A stretch of 23,581 bases of DNA from a virus: positions 1 to 23,581 of IMG/VR virus record IMGVR_UViG_3300043395_000601. One strand, given 5' to 3'. Shown in pieces: positions 5,856 through 19,022 of this stretch; positions within the stretch are counted from its first letter, which is position 1, and every line of letters begins with the position of its first letter. The notes under the pieces are model-generated. The model saw nothing but the letters and a program-made list of their open reading frames with translations. It had not been told where the DNA came from and made no database searches. The position numbers were made by a program, and so were the translations under genes.

Positions 5856-6034
5856 ACGCCTAAGAGCCTGCCAAATAGTTTGACCACAGGCGACTCATGC
5901 TCTGGGCGATGCCCCAGCATGATGTCCTGAACGAACCGCTCTTCAGGCGTGGATGGCCGCGCGTAGAACTGCGGAATGTAGTGCGCGCCGATCTTGGGTG
6001 GCTCTTCTTTAATAAAGTATCCATCACGTAGCAT
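5852..6034 (-). CDS. Small conserved phage protein, function unknown
   Basis: A 60-residue soluble protein with aromatic and proline-rich centre (IGAHYIPQFYARPSTPEERF). ATG 6034 is chosen because a strong AGGAGG sits seven bases upstream; longer in-frame starts up to 6073 lack this. It overlaps the preceding zinc-ribbon gene by 11 bases and the following membrane-protein gene by ATGA. No domain recognised. Confidence 0.6.
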   Translation of the reverse strand: MLRDGYFIKEEPPKIGAHYIPQFYARPSTPEERFVQDIMLGHRPEHESPVVKLFGRLLGV

Positions 6035-6269
6035 CTTTTTTCCTCCTATCTTCATTTGCGCGGCGAGCGTCAACGCCTTTCTTTTTTATCAACGCTGCCT
6101 CGTCCTTAGTATAAATCGATTTCCCCACCATCACGTTGCCTGCGACCCACACTTCTGCTGAGTAGGCATTGTTCTTGCATGATGGGCACCTGCGTTGCCG
6201 CCGAATGCCGCCTGGCTGCTGGGTTGTGTTCACTACGTGAGTCTTGCTGCCGCAATTCAAACACTTCAT
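6024..6269 (-). CDS. Zinc-ribbon protein (NrdR-type N-terminal ribbon)
   Basis: An 81-residue protein whose first 35 residues form a treble-clef/zinc ribbon: Cys3-x2-Cys6 and Cys28-x2-Cys31, with an Arg-rich loop (GGIRRQRRCPSC) between them. This pattern matches the DNA-binding zinc ribbon at the N-terminus of NrdR-like repressors and small phage regulators. The ATP-cone domain of true NrdR is absent, and the C-terminal half is a basic helix (DEAALIKKKGVDARRANEDRRKK). It probably binds nucleic acid or modulates transcription, but its target is unknown. ATG 6269 is in an ATGA overlap with the upstream gene. Confidence 0.7.
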   Translation of the reverse strand: MKCLNCGSKTHVVNTTQQPGGIRRQRRCPSCKNNAYSAEVWVAGNVMVGKSIYTKDEAALIKKKGVDARRANEDRRKKDAT

Positions 6270-7010: not shown

Positions 7011-8353
7011 TTCAGTGCCTCCATCGCTATGTCGGAAATTGCTCGTTTGTCGTGGAGCGCTGCCCAGATCTTTTCGTCAACTGTCTTCTCGGCGAGTAGG
7101 ATATACACCCAGACGTCATGCAGTTGCCCGGAACGGTGCAGTCGTCCAACCGTTTGCTCGTACAGCTCCAGGCTCCACGGCAGCGACAGAAATACCATGT
7201 GGCTTCCCCCATGCTGTAGATTAAGTCCATGTCCCGCTGACTTAGGGTGGACGGCAAGAAGTTCGATTTGTCCGGCGTTCCATCGCTCGATTGCCCGGTC
7301 GTCGTCGAGGGTGGCAAGCCTTGGATAGCGGCGACGAAGTTCTGCCACCTCTTCTTGAAACTGGTAAACGATAAGCGTATTCGCATGTTGGTTCTCCTCC
7401 AGTAAGTCGTCTAATCGATCAAACTTGTGACTGCTAAACCACACCGCCGTCTTGCTCGTAGTGAACTGACCCGGCGCGTCACTTGCCACACGGCTGCTGT
7501 CGTACACAAAGCCAGACGCCATCTGTTGCAACTTGCTTGTGACCGCTGCTGCGTTTGCCGCCAGAATCTCAGCGGTCGGGAACTGCACCACAAAGTCACG
7601 CTTCATCTTCTCGTAAGGCTGCCGGTCGTCTAGCTGACTGCGCAGCTCGACCACATGACAGGGCGGCAGCTTGTCGCGGTACTCGCCAGGCTCCAGCACG
7701 AACGTGGCAGGCTTGATCTTTTCCATGACCAACTGCAGGGCGCCTGGGCGTGGCAGCCACTCGCCGAAGTCGCGGTTCATACATACAAAGTATTGCTGCA
7801 AGAACGCGCCTTTGGCACGGCCTAAGAGCTTCTCGTCGACGATCTTGCACTGGCCGAAGACGTCTTCAAGGCCGTTACTGGTGAATGAGCCGGTCAGACC
7901 CCATCGAATCTTGAACTGATCGATCACCTTGTGCAGCGCCTTGAAGCGCGTGCCGGAGGGGTTCTTGAGCTTAGTCAGCTCGTCAAACACAATCGCATCG
8001 AACTCGGACAAGTCCTGCTCGGCTAACCACTGAATGTTGTCGTAGTTGGTCGCCACGATGTGAGCGTCGGAGTCCAGCGCCTCGCCTCGACTGCGTGGTG
8101 TGCCCACCGCCGTGCGACAGTGCAACATCGGCGCCCACTTACGCGACTCGATCGGCCACACGTCGGTGCAAACACGCTTCGGCGCCAAGACAAGGAACCG
8201 GCTTGCGTAGCCGTCTTTGACCATCGCCTGCATCGCGGTCAATGTAATCGCCGTCTTGCCCGCGCCAACAGGCGCCAAGATCATCGCCCGATCGCGTTCG
8301 TACAGAAAATCAGCGGCTTCATCTTGGTACGGCCTGAGTGCTAATCCACCCAT
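7007..8353 (-). CDS. SNF2-like superfamily 2 helicase / DNA translocase
   Basis: A 448-residue ATP-dependent DNA-remodelling enzyme. Motifs in order: a Q-like RPYQ at residues 7-10, Walker A APVGAGKT at 27-34, an ATNYDN motif near 103, Walker B DELT near 125, LTGSFTSN (motif III-like) near 155, and in the second RecA domain the segments KSAGHGLNLQ and QTVGRLHRSGQ (motifs V and VI). The final RSGQ arginine-finger motif is typical of SNF2 proteins. Phage homologues usually sit beside VRR-NUC, DUF2800 and family A polymerase genes, as here, and are thought to serve replication or recombination. ATG 8353 has AGGAG seven bases upstream and lies 35 bases inside the VRR-NUC gene. Confidence 0.9.
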   Translation of the reverse strand: MGGLALRPYQDEAADFLYERDRAMILAPVGAGKTAITLTAMQAMVKDGYASRFLVLAPKRVCTDVWPIESRKWAPMLHCRTAVGTPRSRGEALDSDAHIVATNYDNIQWLAEQDLSEFDAIVFDELTKLKNPSGTRFKALHKVIDQFKIRWGLTGSFTSNGLEDVFGQCKIVDEKLLGRAKGAFLQQYFVCMNRDFGEWLPRPGALQLVMEKIKPATFVLEPGEYRDKLPPCHVVELRSQLDDRQPYEKMKRDFVVQFPTAEILAANAAAVTSKLQQMASGFVYDSSRVASDAPGQFTTSKTAVWFSSHKFDRLDDLLEENQHANTLIVYQFQEEVAELRRRYPRLATLDDDRAIERWNAGQIELLAVHPKSAGHGLNLQHGGSHMVFLSLPWSLELYEQTVGRLHRSGQLHDVWVYILLAEKTVDEKIWAALHDKRAISDIAMEALK

Positions 8354-8603
8354 CTATTTGCTCCTTAGTCCATAAACAAACGTAGTTCTGTCGCAACGCA
8401 ATAACGTTGTCAGCAAATCGTTTTTGTAATTCAGACAGTCGACCACCTTTGGTTTTCAATTCGACAAACCATGTGCTGCCATCAGGCATACAAGCTAAGC
8501 GATCACTAACCCCACGTTGTGTGGGAGACTTGAACTTGTACGTCTTGCCGCCAGCACGCTCGACCGTCCACACAAAGTAGTTCTCGATTTCTTTTTCTAA
8601 CAT
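8319..8603 (-). CDS. VRR-NUC domain nuclease
   Basis: A 94-residue single-domain nuclease of the PD-(D/E)xK fold. Catalytic-type residues are visible: Asp34 in GVSDRL, and Glu48-x-Lys50 in FVELKTKGGRLSELQK, with Glu5 near the N-terminus. Standalone VRR-NUC proteins cleave branched DNA such as Holliday junctions as dimers. In a phage this fits processing of recombination or replication intermediates before packaging. It is the first gene of the leftward replication operon and overlaps the helicase start. No Shine-Dalgarno is present before ATG 8603; the predicted promoter would start transcription at or next to this ATG, suggesting a leaderless message. Confidence 0.9.
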   Translation of the reverse strand: MLEKEIENYFVWTVERAGGKTYKFKSPTQRGVSDRLACMPDGSTWFVELKTKGGRLSELQKRFADNVIALRQNYVCLWTKEQIDGWISTQAVPR

Positions 8604-8609
8604 GGCGCA

Positions 8610-8638
8610 AATATAAAGGCTAAAAAAGTATTTGACAA
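8610..8638 (-). promoter_or_regulatory. Predicted leftward sigma70 promoter for VRR-NUC/helicase operon
   Basis: On the minus strand TTGTCA (8638-8633) is separated by exactly 17 bases from TATATT (8615-8610), each one mismatch from consensus. The -10 element ends six bases before ATG 8603, so +1 would fall on or next to the start codon. Its -35 hexamer overlaps that of the rightward promoter by five bases. Confidence 0.65.
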
Positions 8639-8660
8639 GGATTATTTTAGGGTCTACAGT
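8632..8660 (+). promoter_or_regulatory. Predicted rightward sigma70 promoter for DUF2800/polymerase operon
   Basis: TTGACA (8632-8637, perfect) is followed after 17 bases by TACAGT (8655-8660, four of six consensus positions). It points to the DUF2800-type gene at 8694 and would give a leader of about 25-30 bases. The hexamer is shared back-to-back with the leftward promoter, so one factor bound here could control both replication transcripts. Confidence 0.65.
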
Positions 8661-8693
8661 CGAGGCTCAATCACTACACGGGAGTACAGTTCA

Positions 8694-10626: not shown

Positions 10627-12594
10627 ATGACCATATTGTTTGCTGACTTCGAGACCCGCAGTCGATGCGACCTTCCGTCGCGCGGCGGGTACAACTATAG
10701 CTTAGACGCAAGCACATCCATTCTGTGCTTTTCCTACGCATTTGGAGACGACGATGTACAAACGTGGACGCCAGATCAACCATTCCCTGAATCCGTATCA
10801 GAACACATTCGCGCTGGTAAACAACTGCGGTTTCATAACGCCGGTTTTGATCGTCAGATCTTTTGGAACGTCCTATGCCAAGATTTTGGCGTACCAAAGC
10901 CTGCGCTTGAACAATTCTATTGCACCGCTGCACAAGCGCGTGCGAACTGCTTACCTGGCAGCCTTGAAGACGTCGGACGCGCCATTAGCAGTGTTATGCG
11001 AAAAGATCATCGCGGAGCCCAGCTCATCCGTGCCTTATCGATCCCTAAAGCGGATGGCAGCTTTAATAGCGATCCGAGACTAATGCAGGAGATGATCGAG
11101 TATTGCGAGGCCGACGTCAGAGCCATGCGAGCCATCAGTAAGGCCATGCGCCCGCTCTCAGACGAGGAGCTTGCCGACTACCACACCAACGAGCGCATCA
11201 ACGACCGTGGCGTGCTACTTGACTTGCCACTCGCGCAGGCCGCCATCCGCTACGCGTCGGTCGAGCTTGAAGAGATCGAGACACTGGTCGCTGACCTGAC
11301 CGAGGGTTCGATCAAGTCCGTGCGCAGCCCCAAGATGCGCCAGTGGGTGATTGATAGGGTTGGCCCGCAGGCGTTGAAGATGATGGAGACGTACAAGGAC
11401 GGCGACTTGAAGTATTCTATCGACAAGTCCGTACGTGCCAATTTACTGGCTTTTGCCGAGGAAAACCCCGATGAGATTCCGACCACTGTTGCGGACGTCA
11501 TTCAATGCGCAGATGACCTCTGGGCGTCGTCGGTTGCGAAGTTCAGCCGCCTTGCGAGCTTGGCAGATGAAGACGATCAACGAGTACGAGGTGCTTTCGT
11601 ATTTGCAGGAGGATCTGCCACCGGACGTGCTTCAAGCTATGGCGCGCAAGTTCACAACTTTACGCGCAAGTGCGCCCAAGAACCCGACGCAGTACGCCAC
11701 GCTATGGTCCGTGGCCACAGCATCGTCCCAAGATTTGGAAAACGCGTTACGGATGTTCTCAAGGGAATGCTCCGGCCCGCACTGATACCCGCACCGGGTA
11801 AGCAGTTCGTTGTCGCCGATTGGTCAGCCGTGGAGGCCCGCGTCACCGCCTGGGCGTCAGCCGACCCGCAGGCCGAGGACGTGCTGCAGGTCTTCCGCGA
11901 GGGCCGCGACATCTACAAGCGTGAAGCCGCCGGCATCTACCGCGTGGCCGAGGACGCAGTCGATAAGGAGCAGCGCCAGATTGGCAAGGTCGCGATTCTC
12001 TCGCTTGGTTTCGGTGGGTCGATTGGCGCATTCTCTGCGATGGGTCGCAATTATGGCGTCTTCATGCCCGAGTCCGATTCGCGTCGGATTGTAGACGCCT
12101 GGCGTCGTGCTAATGCGTGGGCGGTGCGGTACTGGGAAAAGCTCGAGAGCGCCTACACGCGGGCGCTACGCAATCCTAATCGCGAGTTCTCAGCCGGTCG
12201 GGTCACCTACCTGTATGACGGTCAGCACCTCTGGTACGCGCTGCCATCGGGGCGCATCCTGTGCTATCCATTTGCTAAGTTTGAGGGTGATGAGATCACT
12301 TACGTCAAAGCAGCATGGAAGCCGGCAGCCGATGCGAAGGAATGGCCACGGGCACGCTTGTGGCGAGGTCTGGCTTGTGAGAACATAACGCAAGCGATCG
12401 CCAACGATCTGCTACGGCACGCTTTACGCCAGCTTCCTGACGTAGTGCTGCACGTACATGACGAGATCGTAATGGAGACCGCCGACCCCGATGCACCCAA
12501 TACCCTAAAGCAAGTGATGTGTACGCCGCCTGAGTGGGCGGCTGGACTGCCTTTGTCCGCTGAAGCGGAAGTAATGAATCGTTACGGCAAATAA
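10627..12594 (+). CDS. DNA polymerase, family A, with 3'-5' exonuclease domain
   Basis: A 655-residue replicative polymerase. The N-terminal exonuclease domain opens with FADFETRS (Asp7 and Glu9, exo I). The polymerase domain shows motif A VVADWSAVEARVTAW (metal-binding Asp398), motif B with Arg450 and Lys454 followed by LGFGGSIGAF, and motif C VLHVHDEIVME (Asp612). The DWSAVEAR variant of motif A is typical of the phage PolA group that travels with DUF2800, VRR-NUC and SNF2 genes. Length fits a polymerase lacking the 5'-3' nuclease domain. The start is consistent with family N-termini, although only a weak AGGGG precedes it. A hairpin follows the stop directly. Confidence 0.93.
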   Translation: MTILFADFETRSRCDLPSRGGYNYSLDASTSILCFSYAFGDDDVQTWTPDQPFPESVSEHIRAGKQLRFHNAGFDRQIFWNVLCQDFGVPKPALEQFYCTAAQARANCLPGSLEDVGRAISSVMRKDHRGAQLIRALSIPKADGSFNSDPRLMQEMIEYCEADVRAMRAISKAMRPLSDEELADYHTNERINDRGVLLDLPLAQAAIRYASVELEEIETLVADLTEGSIKSVRSPKMRQWVIDRVGPQALKMMETYKDGDLKYSIDKSVRANLLAFAEENPDEIPTTVADVIQCADDLWASSVAKFSRLASLADEDDQRVRGAFVFAGGSATGRASSYGAQVHNFTRKCAQEPDAVRHAMVRGHSIVPRFGKRVTDVLKGMLRPALIPAPGKQFVVADWSAVEARVTAWASADPQAEDVLQVFREGRDIYKREAAGIYRVAEDAVDKEQRQIGKVAILSLGFGGSIGAFSAMGRNYGVFMPESDSRRIVDAWRRANAWAVRYWEKLESAYTRALRNPNREFSAGRVTYLYDGQHLWYALPSGRILCYPFAKFEGDEITYVKAAWKPAADAKEWPRARLWRGLACENITQAIANDLLRHALRQLPDVVLHVHDEIVMETADPDAPNTLKQVMCTPPEWAAGLPLSAEAEVMNRYGK

Positions 12595-12638: not shown

Positions 12639-14951
12639 ATGGATTTCCTAGAATTTTATACTAATCTGGCCCCAGTGGGTGAGACTGCGCTGATTGTGCG
12701 CCAAAAGCCACAGCTAAAGTCCGGTCAGCTGCAATTCCACGCCGATGGCGCGATCAAATGCACTTGGCCGGCGTACCTGCCCGACTACCCAACCAAACCC
12801 GATTGGGCCATTTACGGCAACACGGCAAGCTTCATTGTTGACCGGTTCAAGGACGGCCACGTTTCCGCGTCAGCAGCCAATGCCGATTACGTTCTCGTCA
12901 TGGTCTTGGATGACGTGGGCGACCCCGAGAAGGCGCCGAACCTGCCGAACCTGCCGCCGACATGGATTATGGAGACGTCCGAAGGATCATTCCAGTGGGG
13001 TTACGCTTTCGCCGAGCAGCCGACGACCGGCGAGTACGCCGCAGCCATCCGAGCGATTGCGGACGCCGGCTACACGGATCCTGGCGCCTGCAACGCGGTG
13101 CGCAACTGGCGTCTGCCGGGGTCGATCAACTTAAAACCCAACAAGAACAATTTCGCCGCTCGGCTGGTCGAGTTCCACCCCGACCGCGAGTACAGCCTGC
13201 CCGAGATTTGCGACGCGTTAGGTGTTACGCCCGCGCCCGCCGAGTCGTTAGGCGTGCGCCCTATCCGTTTGTCCGACGATGGCGCTGACGACGTGATGGC
13301 CTGGCTCTCGCATCAGGGCGTGCTGTTGTCGCTGCCAAACCCTGCCGGCTGGGCCGGCGTCCTGTGCCCGAACAAGGACGAGCATACCGATGGCAACCCA
13401 GAGGGGCGCTACAGCCCGTCGACGCGCTCTTACCGGTGCCTGCACTCGCACTGCGTCGACTTCGACTCTCACGCGTTCCTTGATTGGGTGTCGGCCAATG
13501 GTGGGCCGAAGCACGCCCCAGGCTTGCGTGAGGAACTACTGGCTCACGCGATGGATATGGCGCTATCTAAATTAGCGCCGACCGAGGCATTTCCTGACAA
13601 GGGTGCCGAGGTGATCGCCGAGATCGAGAAAAAACAACTGGATAGGGTCGAAAAGGAGGGCTGGTATGAGCGCTTTGCGTACATTCAAAACGAAGATGCA
13701 TTCTTTGATATGTTGGATAGACGCGAGATTAGTCGCGGCACTTTTAACGCACTCTTTCGCCACATTTCCTGCTATTCCATTCACAAAAGCAAAACGCCGC
13801 GCCGAATTGAGGCGTCTATATGCTATGACGAGAACCGGCAGGCCAAGGGCGCGTTGACCGTTGCAGGCATCACGTATGCGGCGGGCGAGACCGTGCTTGT
13901 GTCGCGAGAGGGCCAAGTGTACGGCAACCGGTGGGTCGATCACCGGCCGACAGCGGCCACCGGCAACGCAAAAATATGGCTCGACCATGTTGAGCGCATG
14001 ATCCCCGACCCTGTTGAGCGTAACCACGTACTGGATGTGATGGCCTACAAGCTTCAGCACCCGAACCGCAAGATCAACCACGCGGTGCTGCATATCGGGC
14101 ACCCAGGCTCCGGCAAAGATACGATGTGGCAGCCGTTCCTGTGGGGCATCGGCGGCGAGGCGCTCTCGAACGTATCAATCGTGCGTAACGAAGAGATTCA
14201 GTCGCAATGGGGTTACGCGTACGAGTCCGAGGTGATGGTGTTTGAAGAGCTGCGCCAGAGCGAGGCAAAAGACCGCCGCGCGCTTGAGAACCATCTGAAA
14301 CCCATCATTGCAGCGCCGCCGGACTTCTTGCAGGTCAACCGCAAGGGTCTGCACCCGTATCAAGCACTAAACCGCATTTTCGTTCTCGCGTTCTCGAATG
14401 AGCGTGTGCCTATATCGGTGTCAGGGGATGATCGCCGCTGGTTTGTTACGTACTCCGAGGCGCCGAGGATGACTGAGCAGGAAGCCTGCGCGATTTGGGA
14501 CTGGTACAAGGCCGGCGGGCTGGCTGTGGCTGCTGGCTGGCTTTACGAGCGTGACGTATCCCGATTCAACCCAGGCGGCACCCCACCACTGACCGAGGCG
14601 AAAATAATCATGGTCGAGCAGGGCAGGTCAACGGCTGAATCGTACCTTGTCGAGATGATCGAGCGCCGCTTGGGCGAGTTCTCTGCGGGCGTGGTAGCCG
14701 CACCGTTTTATAGCTTGTGTGACAAATTGCAGAATGGCGCGCCGGTAGGCACCCGCGTGGTACAGCAGGCACTACTGCATGCGCTGAAGGAAGCCGGTTG
14801 GGTCGATATGGGGCGCCTGAAGTCGCGCGAGTTTGACACCCGTAAGCACATCATCTGCGCACCAGAACTGGCCGACACGGCGAGCAAGTCAGAACTGCGC
14901 CGCATGGTCGAAGAAACACCACCGCCGTCCGCCGTTCGCCTGGTCAAATAA
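12639..14951 (+). CDS. Primase-helicase fusion (RepB-like primase plus DUF5906-type ATPase)
   Basis: A 770-residue protein combining primer synthesis and DNA unwinding. Residues about 60-170 resemble the RepB/archaeo-eukaryotic primase group: paired acidic Asp91-Asp92 in VLDDVGD, ETSEGSFQWGY at 112-122 and RNWRLPGSINLKP at 155-167. A Cys/His segment around 240-275 (LCPNKDEH then RCLHSHC) could bind zinc. The C-terminal half is a phage-type superfamily 3-like ATPase with Walker A GHPGSGKDT (Lys493) and Walker B EVMVFEEL (Glu536/537), then LAFSNERVPISVSGDDRRWF, typical of DUF5906/primase-C proteins. AAGGA precedes ATG 12639. With the family A polymerase it makes a minimal phage replisome. Confidence 0.87.
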   Translation: MDFLEFYTNLAPVGETALIVRQKPQLKSGQLQFHADGAIKCTWPAYLPDYPTKPDWAIYGNTASFIVDRFKDGHVSASAANADYVLVMVLDDVGDPEKAPNLPNLPPTWIMETSEGSFQWGYAFAEQPTTGEYAAAIRAIADAGYTDPGACNAVRNWRLPGSINLKPNKNNFAARLVEFHPDREYSLPEICDALGVTPAPAESLGVRPIRLSDDGADDVMAWLSHQGVLLSLPNPAGWAGVLCPNKDEHTDGNPEGRYSPSTRSYRCLHSHCVDFDSHAFLDWVSANGGPKHAPGLREELLAHAMDMALSKLAPTEAFPDKGAEVIAEIEKKQLDRVEKEGWYERFAYIQNEDAFFDMLDRREISRGTFNALFRHISCYSIHKSKTPRRIEASICYDENRQAKGALTVAGITYAAGETVLVSREGQVYGNRWVDHRPTAATGNAKIWLDHVERMIPDPVERNHVLDVMAYKLQHPNRKINHAVLHIGHPGSGKDTMWQPFLWGIGGEALSNVSIVRNEEIQSQWGYAYESEVMVFEELRQSEAKDRRALENHLKPIIAAPPDFLQVNRKGLHPYQALNRIFVLAFSNERVPISVSGDDRRWFVTYSEAPRMTEQEACAIWDWYKAGGLAVAAGWLYERDVSRFNPGGTPPLTEAKIIMVEQGRSTAESYLVEMIERRLGEFSAGVVAAPFYSLCDKLQNGAPVGTRVVQQALLHALKEAGWVDMGRLKSREFDTRKHIICAPELADTASKSELRRMVEETPPPSAVRLVK

Positions 14952-17467: not shown

Positions 17468-17694
17468 GCGCGCGCCCCTTCAAAAGCCGCGCGGCTTTCA
17501 GCGCGCCGCTTGGCCGGCGTGATGACGCGCACAATGCGCGCGCTTGGCGGCCGTGCGTATAGTTCAGCGGCGCGTATCGCTTCGGCTTTTTCTTCGGCTA
17601 CTGCGCGCGTCATCGCGCCGTCGATCGTCGCAAAACCATTGACGGCAAGCGCGCCGTTTTGCGCAGATATTTGAATCAGATATTTTGCTTTCAT
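17464..17694 (-). CDS. First gene of leftward operon, function unknown
   Basis: A 76-residue, Ala/Arg-rich basic protein (KAKYLIQISAQNGALAVNGF, then AVAEEKAEAIRAAELYAR and RIVRVITPAKRRAESRAAF). It appears to be a short strand hairpin followed by helices. It has the strongest ribosome-binding site of the operon, GGAGG six bases before ATG 17694, and lies about 60 bases downstream of a perfect-consensus promoter, so it should be abundantly made early. The DNA is exceptionally rich in GCGC and GCGCGC words. Confidence 0.65.
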   Translation of the reverse strand: MKAKYLIQISAQNGALAVNGFATIDGAMTRAVAEEKAEAIRAAELYARPPSARIVRVITPAKRRAESRAAFEGARA

Positions 17695-18538: not shown

Positions 18539-18566
18539 TTGACATCACACGCAAATGCGCTAATAT
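18539..18566 (+). promoter_or_regulatory. Predicted promoter of the terminase operon
   Basis: TTGACA (18539-18544, perfect) and TAATAT (18561-18566, four of six) with a 16-base spacer. The -10 element ends six bases before ATG 18573, so transcription would begin at or beside the start codon. The tandem TAGCCCACA/TTGCCCACA nonamers at 18519-18536 abut the -35 and could be an operator. Confidence 0.55.
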
Positions 18567-18572
18567 GCAGCC

Positions 18573-19022
18573 ATGTTCAAATCCATCCCGTTCACCCCGC
18601 GCAAAGTCGAGGCGACCGAAGCCAGGCTGCAGGCCATCTATGACGCAGCTGCCTTGGGTCTGAAGGGCGACTCGCTCGCCTTGGCCGCCGGTATGCTGCC
18701 CACCGAGTTTAGGCAGCTGTGCGAGCTTGACCCAGCAGCGAACATGGCAGCGTTAAAAGGCCGCGCCGACAGCGAGATGGAGGCAAGCGCCCACCTGCGT
18801 GATGCAGCCCGCTCTGGCGACGCTAAGGCGGCGCTCGCGATCCTGCAGCACGCCCACGGCTGGACGGCCCGCCAAGAGATTAGCGTCGACATCACGAACA
18901 AGATCAGCATCACGCAGGCGCTGCAGCAGGCACAAGAACGCGTCATCGACGGACTGATTACGGAACAGCAACCGGAGTATCTGGAAAATGCCACAGAACG
19001 CACTCGCGTCCAGAACGCTTAA
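18573..19022 (+). CDS. terS: Terminase small subunit-like DNA-packaging protein
   Basis: A 149-residue protein. The N-terminal half is helical with an HTH-like segment (ARLQAIYDAAALGLKGDSLA, then AAGMLPTEFRQLCE). The middle AHLRDAARSGDAKAALAILQ and HAHGWTARQEISVDI match the C-terminal part of small terminase subunits of podoviruses related to Bcep22 and similar phages. The small subunit recognises the packaging site on viral DNA and hands it to the large subunit encoded at 19722. No Shine-Dalgarno precedes ATG 18573, consistent with a leaderless transcript. The iteron-rich control region lies just upstream. Its 3' end overlaps the next frame by 35 bases. Confidence 0.78.
   Translation: MFKSIPFTPRKVEATEARLQAIYDAAALGLKGDSLALAAGMLPTEFRQLCELDPAANMAALKGRADSEMEASAHLRDAARSGDAKAALAILQHAHGWTARQEISVDITNKISITQALQQAQERVIDGLITEQQPEYLENATERTRVQNA

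Follow-up and report, generated by a model that had tools for sequence, protein, structure and literature searches.

A predicted pair of divergent sigma-70-type promoters sharing one -35 element between the two replication gene arms of a phage family

The DNA analysed here, referred to as the window, is a virus record of 23.6 kb (23,581 nucleotides). The longest related records have 36-39 kb, and the window is part of a genome of roughly 37 kb. Two gene arms diverge from the region 8610-8660 of the window (Table 1). A short nuclease gene and a helicase gene lie leftward, and the rightward arm has, besides the ORFs listed in the table, a nucleotidyltransferase-like ORF; the lysis, terminase and portal genes are located elsewhere in the window. 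The 94-aa nuclease matches the phrog_93 endonuclease with an E value of 1e-22, and its VRR_NUC score of 19.1 bits is under the cut-off of 23.8. Toward the distal end of the leftward arm, a short ORF at 6024-6269 (-) has a zinc ribbon resembling that of NrdR (Zn_ribbon_NrdR, E 6e-7). Among the relatives close in sequence just one is named, MW202483.1 (Podoviridae sp. ctNMl277, Manatee Spring). A search of genome contigs for relatives of the DUF2800 protein, made to find a host, yielded none, and an Rfam scan of the window gave no match.

Table 1. Genes and putative promoter elements around the divergence point (window coordinates)
Feature	Position	Strand	Remark
SNF2/DEAD-type helicase ORF, 448 aa	7007..8353	-	phrog_62; 35-bp overlap with the VRR ORF
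VRR-NUC-like endonuclease ORF, 94 aa, predicted leaderless	8319..8603	-	phrog_93; relatives align from codon 1
6-nt discriminator TGCGCC, leftward -10 to ATG	8604..8609	-	predicted start at 8603, first base of the ATG
Leftward -10 TATATT, 17-nt spacer	8610..8615	-	position and sequence conserved in relatives
A-tract, UP-element-like, just upstream of the rightward -35	8622..8627	+	inside the leftward spacer
Shared -35 core TTGACAA	8632..8638	both	no variation at the 7 positions among class A representatives (as the class definition requires)
TTATTTT (A-rich on the - strand), UP-element-like, upstream of the leftward -35	8642..8648	-	inside the rightward spacer
Rightward -10 TACAGT, 17-nt spacer	8655..8660	+	conserved in class A
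Rightward -10-to-ATG stretch	8661..8693	+	inferred start, likely A8669 after a conserved TC; Shine-Dalgarno GGGAG 8680-8684
DUF2800 / PD-(D/E)XK exonuclease ORF, 372 aa	8694..9812	+	DUF2800, phrog_69
DNA polymerase A ORF, rightward arm	10627..12594	+	family-A polymerase
Primase-like (DUF5906) ORF, rightward arm	12639..14951	+	DUF5906

The heptamer TTGACAA at 8632-8638 can be read as a -35 element in both directions, as TTGACA rightward and as TTGTCA leftward. The rightward promoter would consist of TTGACA at 8632-8637 (+), a spacer of 17 nt and TACAGT at 8655-8660, and the leftward one of TTGTCA at 8638-8633 (-), again 17 nt and TATATT at 8615-8610; each has 10 of the 12 consensus bases. An earlier note on this DNA had proposed this core with a 17-base spacer to a -10 box on either side, and its coordinates and spacings turned out to be exact when they were checked again. 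Outward -35 and -10 hexamers at a spacing of 16-18 nt, by which divergent back-to-back sigma-70 promoters are recognized, are found on both strands. As judged from its sequence, 8610-8660 is an overlapping divergent promoter, of a known general kind and with the uncommon geometry of one shared -35 and two separate -10s.

How often would such a pair arise by chance? A shared -35 pair with at least 9/12 consensus bases occurs once in the window, at 8610-8660 only. Among 120 dinucleotide shuffles of the window, pairs of at least 9/12 appeared in 8 and pairs of at least 10/12 in none, and shuffling the 90-bp gap gave a pair of this quality in 2 of 20,000 cases; these counts should be read with the caveat that TTGACAA is near-symmetric, and TTGACA followed by A gives five of the six bases of a leftward -35 for free, so that the information added is that of the leftward -10. 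The pattern AATATA-N16-18-TTGACAA-N15-18-TANNNT has one match in the window and none in 100 shuffles. The near-symmetry suggests another explanation, in which two ordinary divergent promoters are squeezed into the 90-bp gap and their overlap results from compactness and the form of the -35, with no regulatory consequence. TTGACAA indeed supplies the second -35 for one extra base, and we regard this explanation as a real possibility, if not a favoured one.

Is the shared -35 pair a general device of phages? In scans of viral contigs, ATTATA-N-TTGACAA-N-TATAAT gave at least 120 matches, wrong-orientation and wrong-spacing controls likewise gave at least 120 each, and a control with the reversed core was rarer, with 20 matches. 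Among the non-redundant matches listed, a divergent-gene context was seen for 11 of 69 with the motif versus 10 of 77 with the wrong orientation and 15 of 73 with the wrong spacing. Since divergent context is no commoner than in the controls, the idea that such pairs are general in phages was dropped. The lack of special context for the bare motif in other phages also agrees with ordinary promoters. As the bare motif does no better than the controls, the evidence for 8610-8660 is conservation within the family and not the motif.

To describe this conservation across what is a large family of uncultivated phages, 242 loci were used, namely the protein-search matches, MW202483.1 and the window; 229 of them have the nuclease gene, giving 164 distinct boundary regions. 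In most regions, and before they were sorted into classes, an unconstrained search for the best rightward promoter and a second search, for a leftward -10 near the start codon, led to the same -35 with a one-base offset. The 164 VRR/DUF2800 boundaries were classed by rule, and the resulting counts are not independent because the sequences are related: class A, with the shared TTGACAA and both -10s, has 77; class B, with a shared 8-bp core (TTGCACAA or one close variant) and both -10s, has 30; class C, interleaved, with the leftward -10 TGTGCTAAACT overlapping the rightward -35 region TTTAGCAC, has 20; class D, with abutting -35s within the palindrome TTGACNNGTCAA, has 16; and class E, with other or unclassified arrangements, has 21. 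Shared-type boundaries (A and B) amount to 107/164, and the shared -35 is absent from C, D and E (57/164). When only representatives with less than 80% helicase identity are kept, seven of class A and five of class B remain. On a helicase tree, in which many inner branches are weakly supported, class D is one clade and the labels A, B and C need six changes each, indicating that the architectures were exchanged several times.

In every class A representative the leftward -10 begins with TA and ends with T. The spacer and discriminator positions are mostly variable, except for the T-tract of the leftward strand (the A-tract at 8622..8627 on the plus strand), which is invariant. The class B core departs from TTGACAA at its centre but keeps TTG on both strands, with both -10s in place. 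Selection acting on both directions would be expected to leave TTG on each strand, spaced from the two -10s as a promoter needs, and this difference between the A and B cores speaks against ordinary promoters that overlap through compactness. On the other side, classes C and D lose or alter the sharing yet keep the divergent genes, and the interleaved (C) and abutting (D) promoters that relatives have in this position mean that sharing is not obligatory. Conservation thus gives strong support to the prediction that the locus holds two promoters maintained by selection and sharing a -35.

Could the core instead be mainly an operator, at which a regulator of the phage or of its host switches the two arms on or off jointly, with the likeness to promoters being secondary? 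An inverted repeat, AGCACAG-N9-CTGTGCT, lies between the -10s of class C, and class D has the palindrome, both of which would suit a regulator. No conserved operator dyad was found across classes A-D, however: the repeats are class-specific, none occurs in class A, and the conserved bases of class A are those of the -35, the -10s and the A-tracts. Nor was a repressor or other regulator gene recognized among the scanned ORFs of the window, a 23.6-kb fragment of the roughly 37-kb genome, apart from the NrdR-like zinc ribbon ORF. We consider an operator role improbable. Of the earlier interpretation, the shared -35 pair under selection is borne out by conservation, and the suggestion that the arms are switched together is not, as no family-wide operator was seen; joint switching would need a common regulator, of which none is visible in class A, and is purely conjectural. 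The repeats have features of their own. The class C repeat, which is perfect upstream of the VRR gene in L139 and L145, for example, carries an extended -10 TG in each half, and it could be an operator. In class D (for example L205, L206 and L216) the palindrome provides the two abutting -35s, and a leftward TAnnnn lies 17 nt from the -35 and 6 nt before the ATG, lacking the final T of a -10.

The two arms differ in their predicted leaders. The distance from the end of the leftward -10 to the ATG is 6-7 nt in 101 of the 107 distinct class A and B regions, and no Shine-Dalgarno is present in these short leaders. The remaining six have leaders of 21-27 nt with AGGAG in every case, lengths of 8-20 being absent; two of them (L046 and L047) have the nuclease as the gene behind this leader. 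PMC3160421 treats a TANNNT situated about 10-12 bp ahead of the start codon as the mark of a leaderless gene, and the VRR gene has it at this distance with no Shine-Dalgarno. The fixed distance together with this signature predicts that the nuclease/helicase mRNA starts at the AUG, and a leaderless VRR/helicase transcript, a point that the earlier note does not mention, is most likely. The likeness to the TA-led leaderless genes of bacteria (PMC3160421) lies in the motif and its position; unlike them, the gene here is a phage gene, it is tied to a shared -35, and a few relatives have a Shine-Dalgarno leader instead.

The same data bear on whether the rightward promoter alone works, with a leftward -10 that is a chance AT-rich match and a VRR gene expressed in some other way. 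A recognizable rightward promoter is found in more of the distant relatives, and the leftward -10 of class D has no key final T, as this explanation would have it. However, a leftward TAnnnT precedes an ATG by 6-7 nt in 75/77 class A regions, and TAAACT or TAAAGT does so in 19/20 class C regions, against about 5% for shuffled sequence in either case, and the Shine-Dalgarno is absent just where the leader is short. A rightward promoter acting alone is thus very unlikely.

On the rightward side, the DUF2800 transcript is predicted to have a leader of about 25 nt with the Shine-Dalgarno GGGAG at 8680-8684. At 8667-8684 (+), after the rightward -10, CTCAATCA...AAAGGAG-like sequence is kept in distant relatives. 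Another gene of the window has the same layout as the leftward arm: at 18539-18573 (+), TTGACA-16-TAATAT is followed by 6 nt and the ATG at 18573 of a 149-aa ORF ahead of the terminase and portal genes, which is predicted to give a second leaderless transcript. Most orthologues of this ORF, down to about 58% identity, have a TAnnnT -10-like motif 6-7 nt before the ATG, and the -35 is mostly unconserved.

The genes beside the pair are exchanged more freely than the pair itself. In many relatives a further small gene stands between the pair and DUF2800, giving gaps of 230-1000 bp, and the pair stays on the nuclease side. Such gaps have room enough for two promoters, and the persistence of the core in them argues against an overlap due to compactness. 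Moreover, an unrelated first leftward gene directly behind the same pair is found in L024 (166 aa), in L039, L052, L054 and L056 (59-60 aa), in L188 (195 aa) and in L229 (145 aa). Retention of the pair despite these swaps points to a promoter pair that is a fixed unit into which varying genes are plugged. The place is also an insertion hotspot, with varied small genes directly behind the pair on either side (L003, L013, L024, L039, L094, L188 and others), and these may be accessory or anti-defence genes.

How would the pair work? Host RNA polymerase would dock on TTGACAA in either orientation. A rightward start near 8667-8669 would give a Shine-Dalgarno-led mRNA for the DUF2800 exonuclease, polymerase and primase, and leftward transcription, beginning with the first base of the start codon (8603), would give a leaderless mRNA that encodes the helicase and the VRR-NUC-like nuclease. 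The A-rich tracts beside the core would each serve as an upstream element of one promoter within the spacer of the other. The footprint of RNA polymerase covers roughly -55 to +20. With predicted starts about 64-66 bp apart, two such footprints would overlap by about 45 bp, from which we infer mutually exclusive occupancy. Competition for one RNA polymerase, which the earlier note had suggested, is expected, as it would follow sterically from this geometry. One direction would be occupied at a time, the arms would fire alternately, and the left/right ratio would depend on how strong the two -10s are relative to each other. Note that the shared -10 bidirectional promoters of E. coli compete little at their basal strength and strongly when one direction has been made stronger (PMC12825309). 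The little competition between weakly active ones suits two ordinary promoters with no regulatory consequence; here both -35s are at or near consensus, which makes competition the more likely expectation. Overall, we think it probable that 8610-8660 is a divergent sigma-70-type pair with a shared -35, a leaderless leftward transcript and mutually exclusive firing. A more specific idea, which we hold to be rather doubtful, is that the shared -35 is kept by selection as a turnstile, making each polymerase in turn take one arm or the other, setting the ratio of the arms without a regulator and tying the leaderless arm to the state of the host ribosomes.

The closest known systems are the bidirectional promoters described by the Grainger laboratory (PMC12825309, PMC10268837), in which one element is likewise read both ways by sigma-70 polymerase and binding is mutually exclusive, as proposed here. 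They share a symmetric -10 and have starts 7-25 bp apart, typically 18, whereas here the -35 is shared and the predicted starts are about 64-66 bp apart. By the definition of Warman and Grainger (PMC10268837) the locus is not a bidirectional promoter, its separate -10s having 39 bp between them (8616-8654). The Pc/Pr promoters of plasmid pLS20, a mobile element, likewise diverge and overlap, have AT-rich tracts upstream and are part of a switch (PMC4207663). The start of Pr lies 6 bp upstream of the Pc -35, and Pr depends on the regulator Rco; unlike at 8610-8660, a shared -35 and a leaderless arm are not described in the available part of that report. Divergent phage promoters with leaderless mRNAs are known from cI/cro of phage PY54, shown by RACE (PMC4488713), and from lambda cI as cited there; the leaderless mRNA here is a prediction. 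PY54 and lambda have a repressor switch with operators, whereas here the genes are for replication, no repressor is recognized and the -35 is shared. A search of the open-access literature for divergent promoters with shared or overlapping -35s found no direct precedent: shared -10 bidirectional promoters are well described there, and a family-wide conserved shared -35 pair is not. The natural variants (7-bp core, 8-bp core, interleaved and abutting) form a ready set for asking whether steric sharing sets the ratio of two operons, and the swap of leaderless for Shine-Dalgarno-led mRNAs, with the promoter in front of them conserved, offers a clean natural experiment on how leaderless mRNAs are translated.

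Two further observations are in keeping with transcription by the host RNA polymerase. A search for a T7-type RNA polymerase in 27 related records gave no match, but the control genomes gave no match either, so that the result does not establish its absence. At 17791-17764 (-) there is a sigma-70 promoter with 12/12 consensus bases, probably the main early promoter; behind it come a hairpin and, at 17694, a gene with a Shine-Dalgarno.
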